DNA from: Arthrobacter oryzae
Lineage (GTDB): Bacteria > Actinomycetota > Actinomycetes > Actinomycetales > Micrococcaceae
Reading direction: 5' to 3'
Length of the DNA stretch: 64,000 nt
Assembly (NCBI RefSeq): GCF_003634095.1
Contig: NZ_RBIR01000002.1
Coordinates: 658,191-722,190 of the forward strand
Shown: positions 36,737 through 45,509 of the stretch, piece by piece
How the letters are laid out: every line of letters starts with the position of its first letter
Position numbering within the stretch: position 1 is the first letter of the stretch
Position numbers and translations under genes: made by a program
Notes under the pieces: model-generated
What the model saw: only the letters and a program-made list of their open reading frames with translations
What the model was told of the DNA's origin: nothing
Databases searched by the model: none

Positions 36737-36879
36737 GGACATGCCCTCCTTTCGTCGCGAGCACTGGACATATGGGCACAGTGTCCATCCCGCGGAGCCA
36801 AGACTGGACATGTCCCCCCGGAGCTGGCACGAAGACTGGGCATGTCCCCCCGGAGTTGGCACAACGACTGGGCATGTCC
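36737..36879. repeat. Array B of GGRCATGYCC near-palindromes
   Basis: Within the 387-base gap between the metallophosphoesterase and the ABC exporter. Cores start at 36737, 36806, 36838 and 36870. The central 23-bp element is 36765-36787 (arms TGGACA and TGTCCA). The last three cores sit in exact 32-base units starting at 36802, 36834 and 36866. The core at 36806 is the perfect palindrome GGACATGTCC. No ORF with coding character is seen in the gap. Confidence 0.85.
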
Positions 36880-36988
36880 CGCCGGAAGGCAGGTCCGGGC
36901 ACCCACGTCTTCATTGCGGATCGTAATGACTGCGCCAGATTCCGGGACCGACAAATACCCTGTGAATCCGCTCACTGCATGGCCTAGG

Positions 36989-40825: not shown

Positions 40826-40902
40826 CGGGATGTGGCGCAGCTTGGTAGCGCGCGTCGTTCGGGACGACGAGGTCGCAGGTTCAAATCCTGTCATCCCGAC
40901 CA
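40826..40902 (+). tRNA. tRNA-Pro (anticodon CGG)
   Basis: A 77-base cloverleaf with CCA encoded. The acceptor stem CGGGATG pairs with CATCCCG. The anticodon arm is CGTCG-TTCGGGA-CGACG, giving CGG (reads CCG), and the T-arm has GGTTCAAATCC. A strong terminator follows at once. Confidence 0.97.
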
Positions 40903-40907
40903 GTAAT

Positions 40908-40941
40908 AAAAGAGGACCCTCCACGCGGAGGGTCCTCTTTT
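40908..40941 (+). terminator. Intrinsic terminator of tRNA-Pro
   Basis: A perfect 15-bp stem (40908-40922 with 40927-40941, arm AAAAGAGGACCCTCC) and an ACGC loop, with the T-run inside the 3' arm. Confidence 0.9.
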
Positions 40942-40996
40942 CGTTGCGGCGGTGCCGGGGCCCGCCCCCAGGATCGGCCAGGATTGGCCCGGGCGC

Positions 40997-41034
40997 ACTG
41001 CGGCCCCGGAGGGGATCCTCCGGGGCCGCAGTGG
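40997..41034 (-). terminator. Perfect 17-bp hairpin downstream of the peptide gene
   Basis: CACTGCGGCCCCGGAGG (40997-41013) and its exact complement (41018-41034) flank GGAT. It lies 57 bases past the peptide stop. There is no U-run, as in many actinobacterial terminators. Confidence 0.6.
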
Positions 41035-41090
41035 AAATGCGTGCTGCAGATACCGGCGCGTGCTGCGCTGGACCTGTCACATCGGGCGTC

Positions 41091-41309
41091 TTACATCGGG
41101 TCGGGCCAGTTGCCGACGTTCGTCGATGCGGTCATCGGGTCGGGCCAGTTGCCGACCGCCTGCGCCGTGCGCATGGGATCGGGCCAGTTGCCGACAGCGG
41201 CAACGTGGGAGCCATCGGTCAGTGAAGCAGCGGACAGCACGGCCGGGGCCGCGGCGGAGAATGCCAGTGCGCCCGCCAGGACGGCGCCGGCTGCAATCTT
41301 CTTCAACAT
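41091..41309 (-). CDS. Secreted pro-peptide with three VGNWPDPM repeats
   Basis: A 72-residue precursor. M-L-K-K and a hydrophobic stretch (IAAGAVLAGALAF) form a Sec signal peptide with likely cleavage near APAVLSA. After a short linker the octapeptide VGNWPDPM occurs three times at an exact 13-residue (39-base) period: 41195-41172, 41156-41133 and 41117-41094. Spacers are RTAQA and TASTN, and the last copy ends at the stop. ATG 41309 follows GAGG; TTG 41321 is an in-frame alternative. It is divergent from an HTH-TPR regulator. By analogy with RRNPP pheromone precursors it probably releases a small signalling peptide. A multi-copy antimicrobial or a structural peptide is the alternative. I know of no named family. 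Confidence 0.8.
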   Translation of the reverse strand: MLKKIAAGAVLAGALAFSAAAPAVLSAASLTDGSHVAAVGNWPDPMRTAQAVGNWPDPMTASTNVGNWPDPM

Positions 41310-41369
41310 AGAGTTCCTCAATAAGCGTTGGGGTCCTTAACCAAGTCATCACTACCCTTGTTGACACAC

Positions 41370-41400
41370 ATTGTAAAATGGTTTCCACAGAGACTGTCAA
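41370..41400 (-). promoter_or_regulatory. Promoter of the pro-peptide gene
   Basis: On the minus strand TTGACA (41400-41395) and TACAAT (41375-41370) are 19 bases apart; TTTACA (41377-41372) gives a 17-base alternative. A facing TTGACA on the plus strand (41361-41366) makes an inverted TTGACA/TGTCAA pair across the region, a plausible regulator site. Confidence 0.55.
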
Positions 41401-41439
41401 GCATTTAGTACAAAGATTGTCCGGAATTAGGAGGTATCC

Positions 41440-42705
41440 GTGGGGAACGGATTTGGGGAGAAGCTCCGCGCGGAACGGCTCGAACGCGGGCTGACGCAAG
41501 CGGAGCTGGGCCGCGACCTTTACTCCCCCAGCTACATTTCTCTGCTGGAAACCGGACGCCGCGAGCCCACTGCCGACGTCATCGAGGAGCTGGCCCACAG
41601 GCTCGAGCTGGCCCCCAAGGCGCTTGAGGCCTGGAGCCAGCCGGTGTCCATCAGCGACGCAGAATATGTGCTCGCCGGACTGTATGCCCGGCAGGCCTGG
41701 GACCTCCGGGACTACCCGGTAGCCGCCGCCCACGCCGCCGCCGCGGCCAAGATCGCCCTGGAGGCCAAGAACACCAGCGCGTGGTGGAACATGACCTACA
41801 TGCAGGCCGAGTGCCTGATCAAACAGGGCCTCTGGCAGGAGTGCAAGGACGTCGTCCAGAATCTTCTGGAGCACCCGATGGCCGCGGAGTCCGCCGGGCT
41901 CGGCGTCCGGGCAGAACAGATGCTCGCCGCAGCCTCCCAGGGCCAGGGCCAGCTGACCGCCGCCGTCGAGCACGCGCAGGAAGCCGTGCGGCTCTGCGCC
42001 GGGCTGCCCAAGGGCTCCACCATGATCATCGGGGCCCTGCGGGCCCTCATCGGCGCCCTGGCCGAGAGCGGCCGGCTGGATGAGGCGTGGGAATACTGCC
42101 AGGCCATGAACGCGCAGATGGATGACCACTCCATGTCCCAGCTCGCCGGCGAGGTGGCCTGGGTGATCGGCAACGTGGCCTTCATGCGCCACGACTACGC
42201 GGAGGGCATCAAGTACCACGAGCGCGCCGGCCGGCTGCTTTCCCCGGCCAACGACATCGACCTGTGGGCCCGGTTCAACAAGGCCTCCGCGGCCGTCCGC
42301 CTGTCCTCGGGAATTGTGGAACCCGAAACCCTGTCATCGATCGAACGCGCCGAACTGGCCCTCTCGATTGTGGGCGGCAACAGGACCGACCAGCTGGAGG
42401 TGGCCTTCATCCGGGCCCGCTGGCTCTACCTCACCGGGGACATCGTCGCCGCGGTCCAGAAGCTGCGGGAGATCCACGCGGAACGGCAGGTCCTGGCCCG
42501 GCACACGGCAGGGGAGGTCTCGCTGCTGCTGGGCAAGGCCCTCAAGGCCGCGGGCGAGTCCGCCGAGGCGCTGGTCTACCTTGAGGAAGCCCAGAAGGAG
42601 TTCAGCGCGGCAGGAGCCTCGGACCGGGTCCAGCAGGCGCTGGATGCCGTGCTGGAGATCCGGCTCGCCCAGCGGCGCGCCGAGGCTGCTTCCACCGAGG
42701 CCTAG
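41440..42705 (+). CDS. HTH-TPR transcriptional regulator, RRNPP-like receptor candidate
   Basis: A 421-residue protein. Residues 8-60 are a Cro/CI-type helix-turn-helix (LRAERLERGLTQAELGRDLY, then ISLLETGRREPTADVIEEL). Residues about 75-415 are helical repeats of TPR type (VLAGLYARQAWDLRDYPVAA, AWWNMTYMQAECLIKQGLW, ALVYLEEAQKEFSAAGASDR). This DNA-binding plus TPR plan is that of Rgg/PlcR/PrgX peptide receptors, though longer. GTG 41440 has TTAGGAGGT upstream, a near-perfect Shine-Dalgarno. The 130-base divergent spacer shared with the pro-peptide gene strongly suggests that the peptide is its ligand and that it controls the peptide promoter; that is inference. Confidence 0.88.
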   Translation: MGNGFGEKLRAERLERGLTQAELGRDLYSPSYISLLETGRREPTADVIEELAHRLELAPKALEAWSQPVSISDAEYVLAGLYARQAWDLRDYPVAAAHAAAAAKIALEAKNTSAWWNMTYMQAECLIKQGLWQECKDVVQNLLEHPMAAESAGLGVRAEQMLAAASQGQGQLTAAVEHAQEAVRLCAGLPKGSTMIIGALRALIGALAESGRLDEAWEYCQAMNAQMDDHSMSQLAGEVAWVIGNVAFMRHDYAEGIKYHERAGRLLSPANDIDLWARFNKASAAVRLSSGIVEPETLSSIERAELALSIVGGNRTDQLEVAFIRARWLYLTGDIVAAVQKLREIHAERQVLARHTAGEVSLLLGKALKAAGESAEALVYLEEAQKEFSAAGASDRVQQALDAVLEIRLAQRRAEAASTEA

Positions 42706-42742
42706 CCCCGCGGGCGGCGGCCCGGCAGGCGCTCCGCCGCGG

Positions 42743-43723
42743 CTAGGCGAACGTCCGGCCGGTGAGCTTCTCGTAGGCCTCCACGTAGCGGCTACGCGTG
42801 CGCGCCACGACGTCGGCGGGCAGCGGCGGCGGGGGTGTGTCCGAGGCCTTGTCCCAGCCGGACTCCGGCGAGGTCAGCCAGTCGCGCACGTACTGCTTGT
42901 CATAGGACGGCTGCGCCTGCCCGGGCCGGTACGTGGCGGCATCCCAGAAGCGCGAGGAGTCCGGGGTCAGCACCTCATCGCCCAGGGTGATCACGCCGTT
43001 CGCCGCGTCGAGGCCGAACTCCACCTTGGTGTCGGCCAGGACGATCCCGCGGCCACGGGCGATGCCCTCGGCCTTGGTGTAGATCTCCAGGGTGAGCTCG
43101 CGCAGCCGGGCCGCGACGTCCTCACCCACGAGGCCCACGACGGCGTCGTAGGTGATGTTCTCGTCGTGCTCGCCCACCTCGGCCTTCGCCGAGGGCGTGA
43201 AGATGGGTTCCGCCAGGCGCGATCCGTCCACCAGGCCGGCGGGCAGCGGGATGCTGCACACGGTGCCCGATGTGCGGTACTCCAGAAGCCCGGAGCCGGT
43301 GAGGTAGCCGCGGGCGATGCATTCGACCGGGAACATGTCCAGCTTCTTGCAGATCATCGCCCGGCCCTCGACGGCGGCCGGAACACCGCCCTCGGCCGTG
43401 GAGGCGAGGACGTGATGGGCGACGCCGAGCTGTTCGAACCACCACAGGCTCAGCTGGGTCAGGATGCGTCCCTTGTCCGGGATCTCGCTGGCCAGCACGT
43501 GGTCGTAGGCGCTGATGCGGTCGCTTGCCACCACCAGGACGCAGTCCTGGCCGACGCGTTCGGTGATGGCGGCGTCGGCGGGGATGTATAGGTCACGGAC
43601 CTTGCCGGAGTAGACGTGCTGCCAGCCCGGGAGGTCCTGCGTAGCAGTGTCCAGACCGCCCTTGGGCTGGGAATTGGGCTGGGCGGGGCCGGGCGTCGAG
43701 GCTGCGGGTTCCGTCACGGTCAT
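42743..43723 (-). CDS. purC: SAICAR synthetase
   Basis: A 326-residue enzyme of purine biosynthesis joining CAIR and aspartate with ATP. GKVRDLYIPAD (phosphate-binding loop), ASDRISAYDHVLASEIPDKG, PVECIARGYLTGSGLLEY and DTKVEFGLDAANGVITLGDE are the family blocks. The N-terminal 30 residues are a Pro/Gln-rich extension. ATG overlaps the purD stop by four bases (ATGA), so purD-purC form a coupled unit. Confidence 0.96.
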   Translation of the reverse strand: MTVTEPAASTPGPAQPNSQPKGGLDTATQDLPGWQHVYSGKVRDLYIPADAAITERVGQDCVLVVASDRISAYDHVLASEIPDKGRILTQLSLWWFEQLGVAHHVLASTAEGGVPAAVEGRAMICKKLDMFPVECIARGYLTGSGLLEYRTSGTVCSIPLPAGLVDGSRLAEPIFTPSAKAEVGEHDENITYDAVVGLVGEDVAARLRELTLEIYTKAEGIARGRGIVLADTKVEFGLDAANGVITLGDEVLTPDSSRFWDAATYRPGQAQPSYDKQYVRDWLTSPESGWDKASDTPPPPLPADVVARTRSRYVEAYEKLTGRTFA

Positions 43724-45030: not shown

Positions 45031-45084
45031 AGTCTCCAAGGGTACGTGGTGGACCCCGCAGGCTCCTAAGCTGTGTCGGCCGCT

Positions 45085-45461
45085 GGACATGCCCGTTCCC
45101 GCGCCCGGGCATGCCCAGCGCGGGCGTGATCCACGGGACATGCCCACTCCCCGCCCCGTCTGCCAGGCACCCCCACGGGACATGTCCAGTCCCCGCCCCG
45201 CCCGCTGGGCACAATGCCATCATGCTCACGCCCCGGCCCTAGGGCTGGGCATGTCCCTCGGAGCCCGGTGAGCATGTCCACTCGCGTGGTCCGGGGCTGA
45301 GCATGTCCAGGCACGGGGTCCAGGGCCGGGCATGTCCCTCGGAGCCCGGTGGGCATGTCCACTCACGTGGTCCGGGGCTGAGCATGTCCAAGCGCGGGGC
45401 CCGGTGAGCATGTCCAGGCACGGGGCCCAGGGCTGGGCATGTCCCTCGGAGCAGGGAGTTT
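45085..45461. repeat. Array C of GGRCATGYCC near-palindromes
   Basis: Fills the 479-base divergent gap between purD and the molybdopterin oxidoreductase. Left cores start at 45085, 45107, 45136 and 45178. The central 23-bp element is 45206-45228. Right cores start at 45247, 45270, 45299, 45328, 45351, 45380, 45406 and 45435. Left cores read GGACATG or are symmetric; all right cores read G(G/A)GCATGTCC. Cores at 45247/45270/45299 recur exactly 81 bases later, showing a tandem duplication. A degenerate TTTGTCC copy ends near 45461. No convincing gene is present. Confidence 0.88.
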
Positions 45462-45509
45462 GTCCACTCGCCTGACAATCCGGCGGGCGTGCGGCTACGA
45501 ATGGCCTGT

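Follow-up and report, generated by a model that had tools for sequence, protein, structure and literature searches.

A candidate peptide-pheromone pair in Arthrobacter: a repeat-bearing precursor facing a helix-turn-helix tetratricopeptide regulator

Within a 64,000-nucleotide stretch of the Arthrobacter oryzae genome (contig NZ_RBIR01000002.1, positions 658,191 to 722,190 of the forward strand; hereafter the window, whose own numbering is used throughout) a small gene for a repeat-bearing and predicted exported precursor (41091–41309, minus strand) stands divergent from a gene for a regulator (41440–42705, plus strand) that joins a helix-turn-helix (HTH) to a tetratricopeptide repeat (TPR) domain. 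RRNPP systems of Firmicutes pair a small exported propeptide with an adjacent HTH-TPR receptor, and we consider it probable (about 0.8) that the pair described here is a peptide-pheromone module working like those RRNPP systems of the Bacillota. Residues of both proteins change in step, and so the two products are likely a peptide signal passing between cells and the receptor for it. The RRNPP-like relation of signal and receptor put forward in the original prediction is supported by the pairing of the genes, by covariation of the peptide with receptor residues 127, 132 and 167, by an HTH-less paralogue and by a conserved element between the two genes.

Pairing, core and covariation in the genus

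Of 59 genomes drawn, own genome included, 37 belong to the genus of the window and all of these carry the regulator (75–100% identity, own genome included), with weak matches only outside the genus (best E 1.4e-9). A facing precursor gene occurs in the same 37, recognised by its NWPD motif in 35 and carrying variant cores in two (GIWPDPM twice at L034, and a degenerate precursor ending SGNWPYPV at L037), and because all 37 hold both genes the pair is not a chance association. The precursor faces the regulator also at 103 of 103 further loci (L051–L153), which are the best-matching loci only (identity at least 83%) and of which 80 bear organism names, these being Arthrobacter, Pseudarthrobacter and Paenarthrobacter. 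The two sets overlap and their 140 loci amount to 116 distinct receptors; pair and orientation are kept in all 140, that is across Arthrobacter and close relatives. When a single hydropathy rule was applied, a divergent open reading frame (ORF) with a Sec-like start lay upstream of 116/116 distinct receptors, against 11, 5 and 12 of 116 in control stretches on the same strand and antisense, and so the adjacent small propeptide gene with a predicted export signal, a feature of RRNPP systems, is present here.

The 140 precursor genes comprise 116 distinct DNAs, in which one, two, three or four copies of a core occur in 6, 51, 35 and 24 cases respectively. The 309 cores read [IVT]G[NI]WPDP[MAV], plus one SGNWPYPV, and vary synonymously among themselves. 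In 112 of the 116 the last core residue is also the C-terminus of the precursor, and the conserved core thus has the placing at or near the propeptide C-terminus that is characteristic of RRNPP signals. Of the 110 precursors with more than one copy, 108 have the same residue at position 1 of every copy and 104 the same at position 8, and the spacers between copies are of 131 distinct kinds. Copy pairs within one precursor that encode the same peptide differ in their DNA in 254 of 274 cases and this, with the synonymous change among cores, is why selection seems to act on the peptide itself.

Covariation was followed in 112 distinct receptors, each labelled by the commonest residue 1 among the cores of its precursor. 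Receptor residue 167 follows that label without exception (I with H in 60/60, V with Q in 46/46, T or S with Q in 6/6). In I-type receptors residue 127 is M and residue 132 is L, and in V-type receptors they are I and W, with a single V-type exception. On the receptor tree the peptide residue changes on seven branches, one of them with low support (0.198), which together make up 10.9% of tree length and carry 6/6 of the changes at residue 167, 4/4 at 132 and 4/6 at 127. Amino-acid change on these label branches is raised only in residue blocks 121–140 (0.25) and 161–180 (0.24), the other blocks lying at 0.00–0.16 and third codon positions at 0.00–0.10. With the tree remade from the DNA of codons 181–410 to avoid circularity there are twelve label changes, on branches that are 10.1% of tree length, and these branches take 10/10 of the changes at 167, 9/9 at 132 and 10/12 at 127. 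As far as sequences can speak to it, this pattern lends support to the view that the TPR domain recognises the peptide. For peptide position 8 covariation was weak (best p 0.002, uncorrected over 162 columns) and no claim is made of it.

The two genes at the window locus and the element between them

The minus-strand precursor gene encodes 72 residues (coding part 41094–41309, stop codon 41091–41093) from an ATG at 41309 with GAGGAA ahead of it; an alternative TTG start at 41321 would give 76 residues. Residues 1–27 (41229–41309), running from MLKK with its Lys-Lys pair through a hydrophobic stretch to the small-residue end VLSA, form a predicted signal peptide whose cleavage point was placed by eye. 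Beyond it the octapeptide VGNWPDPM recurs at residues 39–46 (41172–41195), 52–59 (41133–41156) and 65–72 (41094–41117), the third copy being the exact C-terminus, and Tandem Repeats Finder gives the array 41094–41195 a score of 124. The claim of a 72-residue Sec-type precursor with three identical copies was thus borne out on the sequence; the octapeptide is best taken as a conserved core only, rather than an established mature form. Precursor homologues number 365, and among 120 listed most are without a name or called hypothetical protein, a few having other automatic names. A tRNA-Pro gene (CGG; 40826–40902) adjoins the precursor gene. A perfect 15-bp inverted repeat with a 4-base loop, seen by eye, lies just beyond the precursor stop (40998–41031), and is not called a terminator because it is without a T-run.

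The regulator, a predicted cytoplasmic receptor, has 421 residues and begins with a GTG preceded by AGGAGG, 130 bases from the start codon of the divergent precursor gene. Its Cro/CI-type HTH (residues 5–64, 41452–41631) scores above the cut-offs of two Pfam families, HTH_31 (E 3.9e-11) and HTH_3 (E 1.8e-10); the TPR matches all fall under the curated Pfam cut-offs for the window protein and are better in its relatives. The AlphaFold2 (AF2) model, built on 35 sequences, has a mean pLDDT (predicted local distance difference test) of 78.2; the HTH is modelled poorly and with low confidence, and residues 71–420 (41650–42699) form a predicted TPR superhelix of fair to high confidence, mostly above pLDDT 70 from residue 80. 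By Pfam and AF2 together the protein therefore has the C-terminal TPR superhelix and N-terminal Cro/CI HTH of an RRNPP receptor, and the architecture and spacing proposed at the outset hold.

First helices of TPR repeats line the inner groove in TPR proteins. Many of the residues invariant in 23 family members (W115, W116, M118, W241, N245, F248, W276, F279, N280, R287, R325 and W328) fall in first helices, the AF2 model placing them in helices 112–128, 233–249, 273–289 and 315–331. The covarying residues 127 (here I, 41818–41820) and 167 (here Q, 41938–41940) are at the ends of helices 112–128 and 152–168, and residue 132 (here W, 41833–41835) starts the helix following the first of these. 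In a profile search of the PDB the best natural HTH-TPR match is PlcR (E 2.4e-7, over residues 3–202), outscored by four designed pentatricopeptide chains. The fold match to the receptors of the Bacillota is within the general TPR range, LGN and other TPR proteins scoring above NprR or Rap, and membership of RRNPP by fold is not claimed.

Between the genes lies a promoter- or operator-like element (41361–41400), TTGACA...CATTGTAAAATG...TGTCAA, which an alignment of 101 distinct intergenic regions shows as nearly invariant, with the consensus TTGTTGACAyaCATTGTAAAATgtTTTCCACAGnGaCTGTCAAG. It is present with at most two substitutions at 140/140 HTH loci of the genus, and the start-to-start gap is 124–146 bases in 138 of them. 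In other Micrococcaceae genera, where the receptors compared are 45–76% identical, the element (same limit) is found at 12 of the 13 loci having both an HTH receptor and a peptide gene, the exception being L175, whose short peptide ORF is itself doubtful. It is found at none of 22 loci with an HTH receptor and no visible peptide gene, three of which (L170, L177 and L191) show a likeness at four substitutions, and at none of 18 loci where an HTH-less receptor has a peptide gene (13 from the genus of the window and 5 from one other). Further sites in the own genome were sought with a 22-base form at up to three mismatches, which occurs only once, looser sites not having been searched genome-wide; a 20-base form is present in one copy per genome in 5/5 genomes, and so the regulon search found no second target. 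A scan of 40900–42800 for sigma-70 promoters and terminators found none. The element may well be an autoregulatory site of the receptor.

Other genera, the HTH-less branch and distant receptors

Among the matches listed from other Micrococcaceae genera, 40 loci were picked by hand to span genera. The original prediction had seen its weak point in a regulator occurring mostly without the peptide gene; this is not so in the genus, with its 140 paired loci, and in other genera the pairing is partial, a precursor being visible at 18 of the 40, one of them doubtful. Thirteen of these are HTH-type loci, with cores AIGNWPDPM, VGNWPDP[SATF], VGNWPDAV, TGNWPN, PGNWPD, PGIWPD, VWIWPD, VGIWPNS, VGEWPH, VGDWPH and a doubtful IGDWPH, and five are HTH-less loci of another genus (IGNWPD, IGNWPH, IGDWPN, MGNWPH and IDDWPH). 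The 22 HTH-type loci without a visible precursor are eight additional paralogues from a single genus, 11 from another genus in which 13 receptors were read, and three more. The hydropathy rule also returns 18 of 40 (controls 2, 5 and 0) but not the same set as reading by eye, since it takes L178 and L187, which have no Trp-Pro core, and passes over L175 and L180. In one genus eleven receptors (L170–L172, L183–L187 and L191–L193) have neither a visible facing peptide gene nor the element at up to two substitutions, and two of the same genus (L168 and L169) have both. The eleven are possibly orphans, or have signals encoded elsewhere.

A second match to the regulator, 39–47% identical and beginning past the HTH, occurs in 18 of the 37 genus genomes. 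At all 13 of the 18 such loci read (L038–L050) a TPR protein without an HTH faces a small precursor, found by the hydropathy rule in 12, and so an HTH-less TPR receptor with a peptide gene of its own, as in Rap-Phr systems, exists in 13/13. Cores at these 13 loci are GWWP[NDH], NWWP[DN]ST, EYWPNST and GSWPN, broadly of an NWWPDST/GWWPN type, and two receptors of one genome thus face different peptide types. L038 is the paralogue of the own genome (G000:C10:24684-25691). A GGDEF-EAL gene lies near all 13 (by tblastn, with a Pfam check on four), a DUF7793 gene near 11 and a GAF-HisKA-HATPase kinase gene near six, and at four HTH-type control loci none of the three was present. At the five HTH-less loci of another genus a GGDEF-EAL gene was within the stretch read at L180 only. 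The HTH-less receptor may be Rap-like and act on cyclic di-GMP (c-di-GMP) turnover. An HTH-less paralogue with its own precursor, and an element shared by loci that have both HTH and peptide, fit an RRNPP-like reading of the gene comparisons.

Farther out, the family profile (E at most 1e-20) finds matches in 102 of 394 genomes of the class and 38 of its 137 genera. A part of these class matches, 83 distinct distant receptors, had their upstream DNA read; of receptors with the same first 150 residues only one was kept, L273, L280 and L284 (own genus) were left out, and L234 and L285, with short upstream DNA, were scored as having no precursor. A Sec-like small ORF faces 52 of the 83 (controls 9, 1 and 6 of 83). 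In 38 the ORF ends in Cys-Cys or has Cys-Cys within six residues of its end, seven of these having Trp-Pro as well; the remaining loci divide into five with a Trp-Pro core, nine with other ORFs and 31 with none. The nine are about as many as the control rate, and therefore some may be chance, and among the 17 control ORFs such a Cys-Cys is seen in two and Trp-Pro in two. By eye L249 has DISWP repeats, which the hydropathy rule missed. On a 124-row tree the peptide classes cluster (29 changes against 61.9 when shuffled, none of 200 shuffles being as low), a number that near-copies help. Cys-Cys ends such as ASPGDFCC, QPQWPGMCC and GPTWCC are spread over L223–L241 and L255–L324, mostly of other orders of the class, and in a family with large genomes (f37) L246, L249 and L305 have precursors with DI[EGS]WP repeats facing HTH-TPR regulators.

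Distant HTH-TPR genes are also found in 14 and 30 records of plasmid collections, mostly Streptomyces. At a Nonomuraea gerenzanensis locus (L326), where the receptor start was set roughly, the facing Sec-like ORF ends GDAGCC; none faces the receptor at six Streptomyces plasmid loci (L253, L254, L325, L327, L328 and L329) among the seven records read. The window receptor had no match among phages. The record MT836207.1, an 11.9-kb unannotated "Bacteriophage sp." entry that may be phage or mis-binned, encodes at 275–1069 a fragment of one of the distant HTH-TPR receptors (35% identity). We lean towards an actinobacteria-wide superfamily of intracellular peptide receptors with facing precursors, having Trp-Pro and C-terminal Cys-Cys classes and a Rap-like HTH-less branch that would gate c-di-GMP turnover; the superfamily would be sister to RRNPP or independent of it.

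Proposed mechanism, rival explanations and known systems

In the mechanism proposed, the 72-residue precursor would be exported by Sec and cut outside the cell to release the repeated core, about VGNWPDPM, several signal copies being given by each precursor through its repeats. Taken up again by an oligopeptide permease, the core peptide would dock in the concave groove of the TPR domain of the facing regulator. The regulator would then grip the promoter-like intergenic element differently, and the probable main direct output is that the peptide gene is autoregulated. The own genome has seven SBP_bac_5 proteins, which show that import is possible and no more.

A different role for the precursor would be that of a small protein acting locally or in the envelope, as an antimicrobial or as a sensor of stress in export or in the envelope, with the HTH-TPR protein reading the precursor or its fragments inside the producer and no communication between cells. 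This we regard as unlikely, although it accommodates a precursor predicted to be exported that lies next to the regulator at each of the genus loci read, and although covariation points to recognition and is silent on where the peptide comes from. The signal region, the multi-copy cores, the diversity of spacers and the exact C-terminal position resemble exported pheromone precursors instead, and a reading of the window genes shows no obvious gene for immunity or modification next to the precursor. That the regulator is merely fortuitous company, an ordinary XRE protein beside a chance repeat ORF, has next to nothing in its favour: XRE regulators are common and short ORFs easily found in GC-rich DNA, but conservation, pairing, core selection and covariation all contradict it.

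Linked inheritance has to be weighed as well, whereby the regulator would bind some other ligand or protein, the precursor would be its main target gene and the covariation only apparent. The genes are adjacent, so that recombination can move both together, and the element lies between them. A further tree was made from codons 1–110, the stretch that separates the peptide gene from the covarying codons; it has 15 label changes and yet residues 132 and 167 keep 12/12 and 11/12 of their changes on its label branches (127, 10/13). Some distant columns also follow the label there (308 in 5/5, 314 in 5/6, 223 and 202 in 4/5), scores that a short and poorly resolved tree could permit. If one exchanged tract stretched from the peptide gene as far as codon 167, the interval between should be coupled too, and such coupling is not seen: on the label branches of the receptor tree change is concentrated in 121–140 and 161–180 and not in blocks 1–120 (0.00–0.15), the part between the covarying codons and the peptide gene. 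The HTH-less paralogues, moreover, face a precursor too, and linked inheritance in place of recognition seems quite improbable.

Set beside PlcR-PapR and NprR-NprX, the RRNPP systems of Bacillus, the pheromone-like pair described here is in Actinomycetota and not Bacillota, carries between one and four copies of a Trp-Pro core at the C-terminus, has its precursor divergent and not downstream of the receptor, and has no copy of its element found outside the locus in the own-genome and five-genome searches. In comparison with Rap-Phr, also of Bacillus, the HTH-less branch has a divergent precursor with a GWWP[NDH]-like core and adjoins a GGDEF-EAL gene (at all the genus loci read, at one of five in another genus), a neighbour suggestive of c-di-GMP and not of Spo0F or ComA. 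Tandemly duplicated RRNPPA propeptides have been described for Bacillota (PLoS Biol 2024, PMC11343458), and as far as the accessible part of that paper goes they share with the present precursors more than one pheromone copy per precursor, the variable spacers and the last copy as exact C-terminus setting the latter apart.

Cell-to-cell signalling in the same phylum is covered for small molecules and LuxR-type regulators in a review (PMC4748050), the accessible text of which does not describe an HTH-TPR receptor with a linear propeptide. According to the RRNPP_detector paper (PMC10075063), signalling in Actinomycetota typically uses small molecules made by enzymes, and the RRNPP literature, in the parts available, treats linear-peptide signalling through intracellular TPR receptors as a trait of Bacillota (Firmicutes). 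Such a pair is not known to have been described in actinobacteria: among the papers listed from the open-licence part of PubMed Central, none was on an actinobacterial HTH-TPR/peptide pair. If the pheromone reading is true, abundant soil bacteria and many other actinobacteria would have a genetically encoded peptide language readable from genomes, and there would be a handle on density-dependent traits in the relatives of Arthrobacter; if the superfamily is real as well, a whole layer of peptide communication would exist in Actinomycetota. Thanks to the covarying residues, specificity can be tested by swapping a few positions, and the HTH-less branch hints at a connection between such a receptor and c-di-GMP.

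The window genes neighbouring the pair, as read, are purC, a tRNA gene and genes for ABC transporters. At 36800–36895 and 45080–45489 there are intergenic arrays whose imperfect repeats are built on a GCATGTCC core, present in both orientations.
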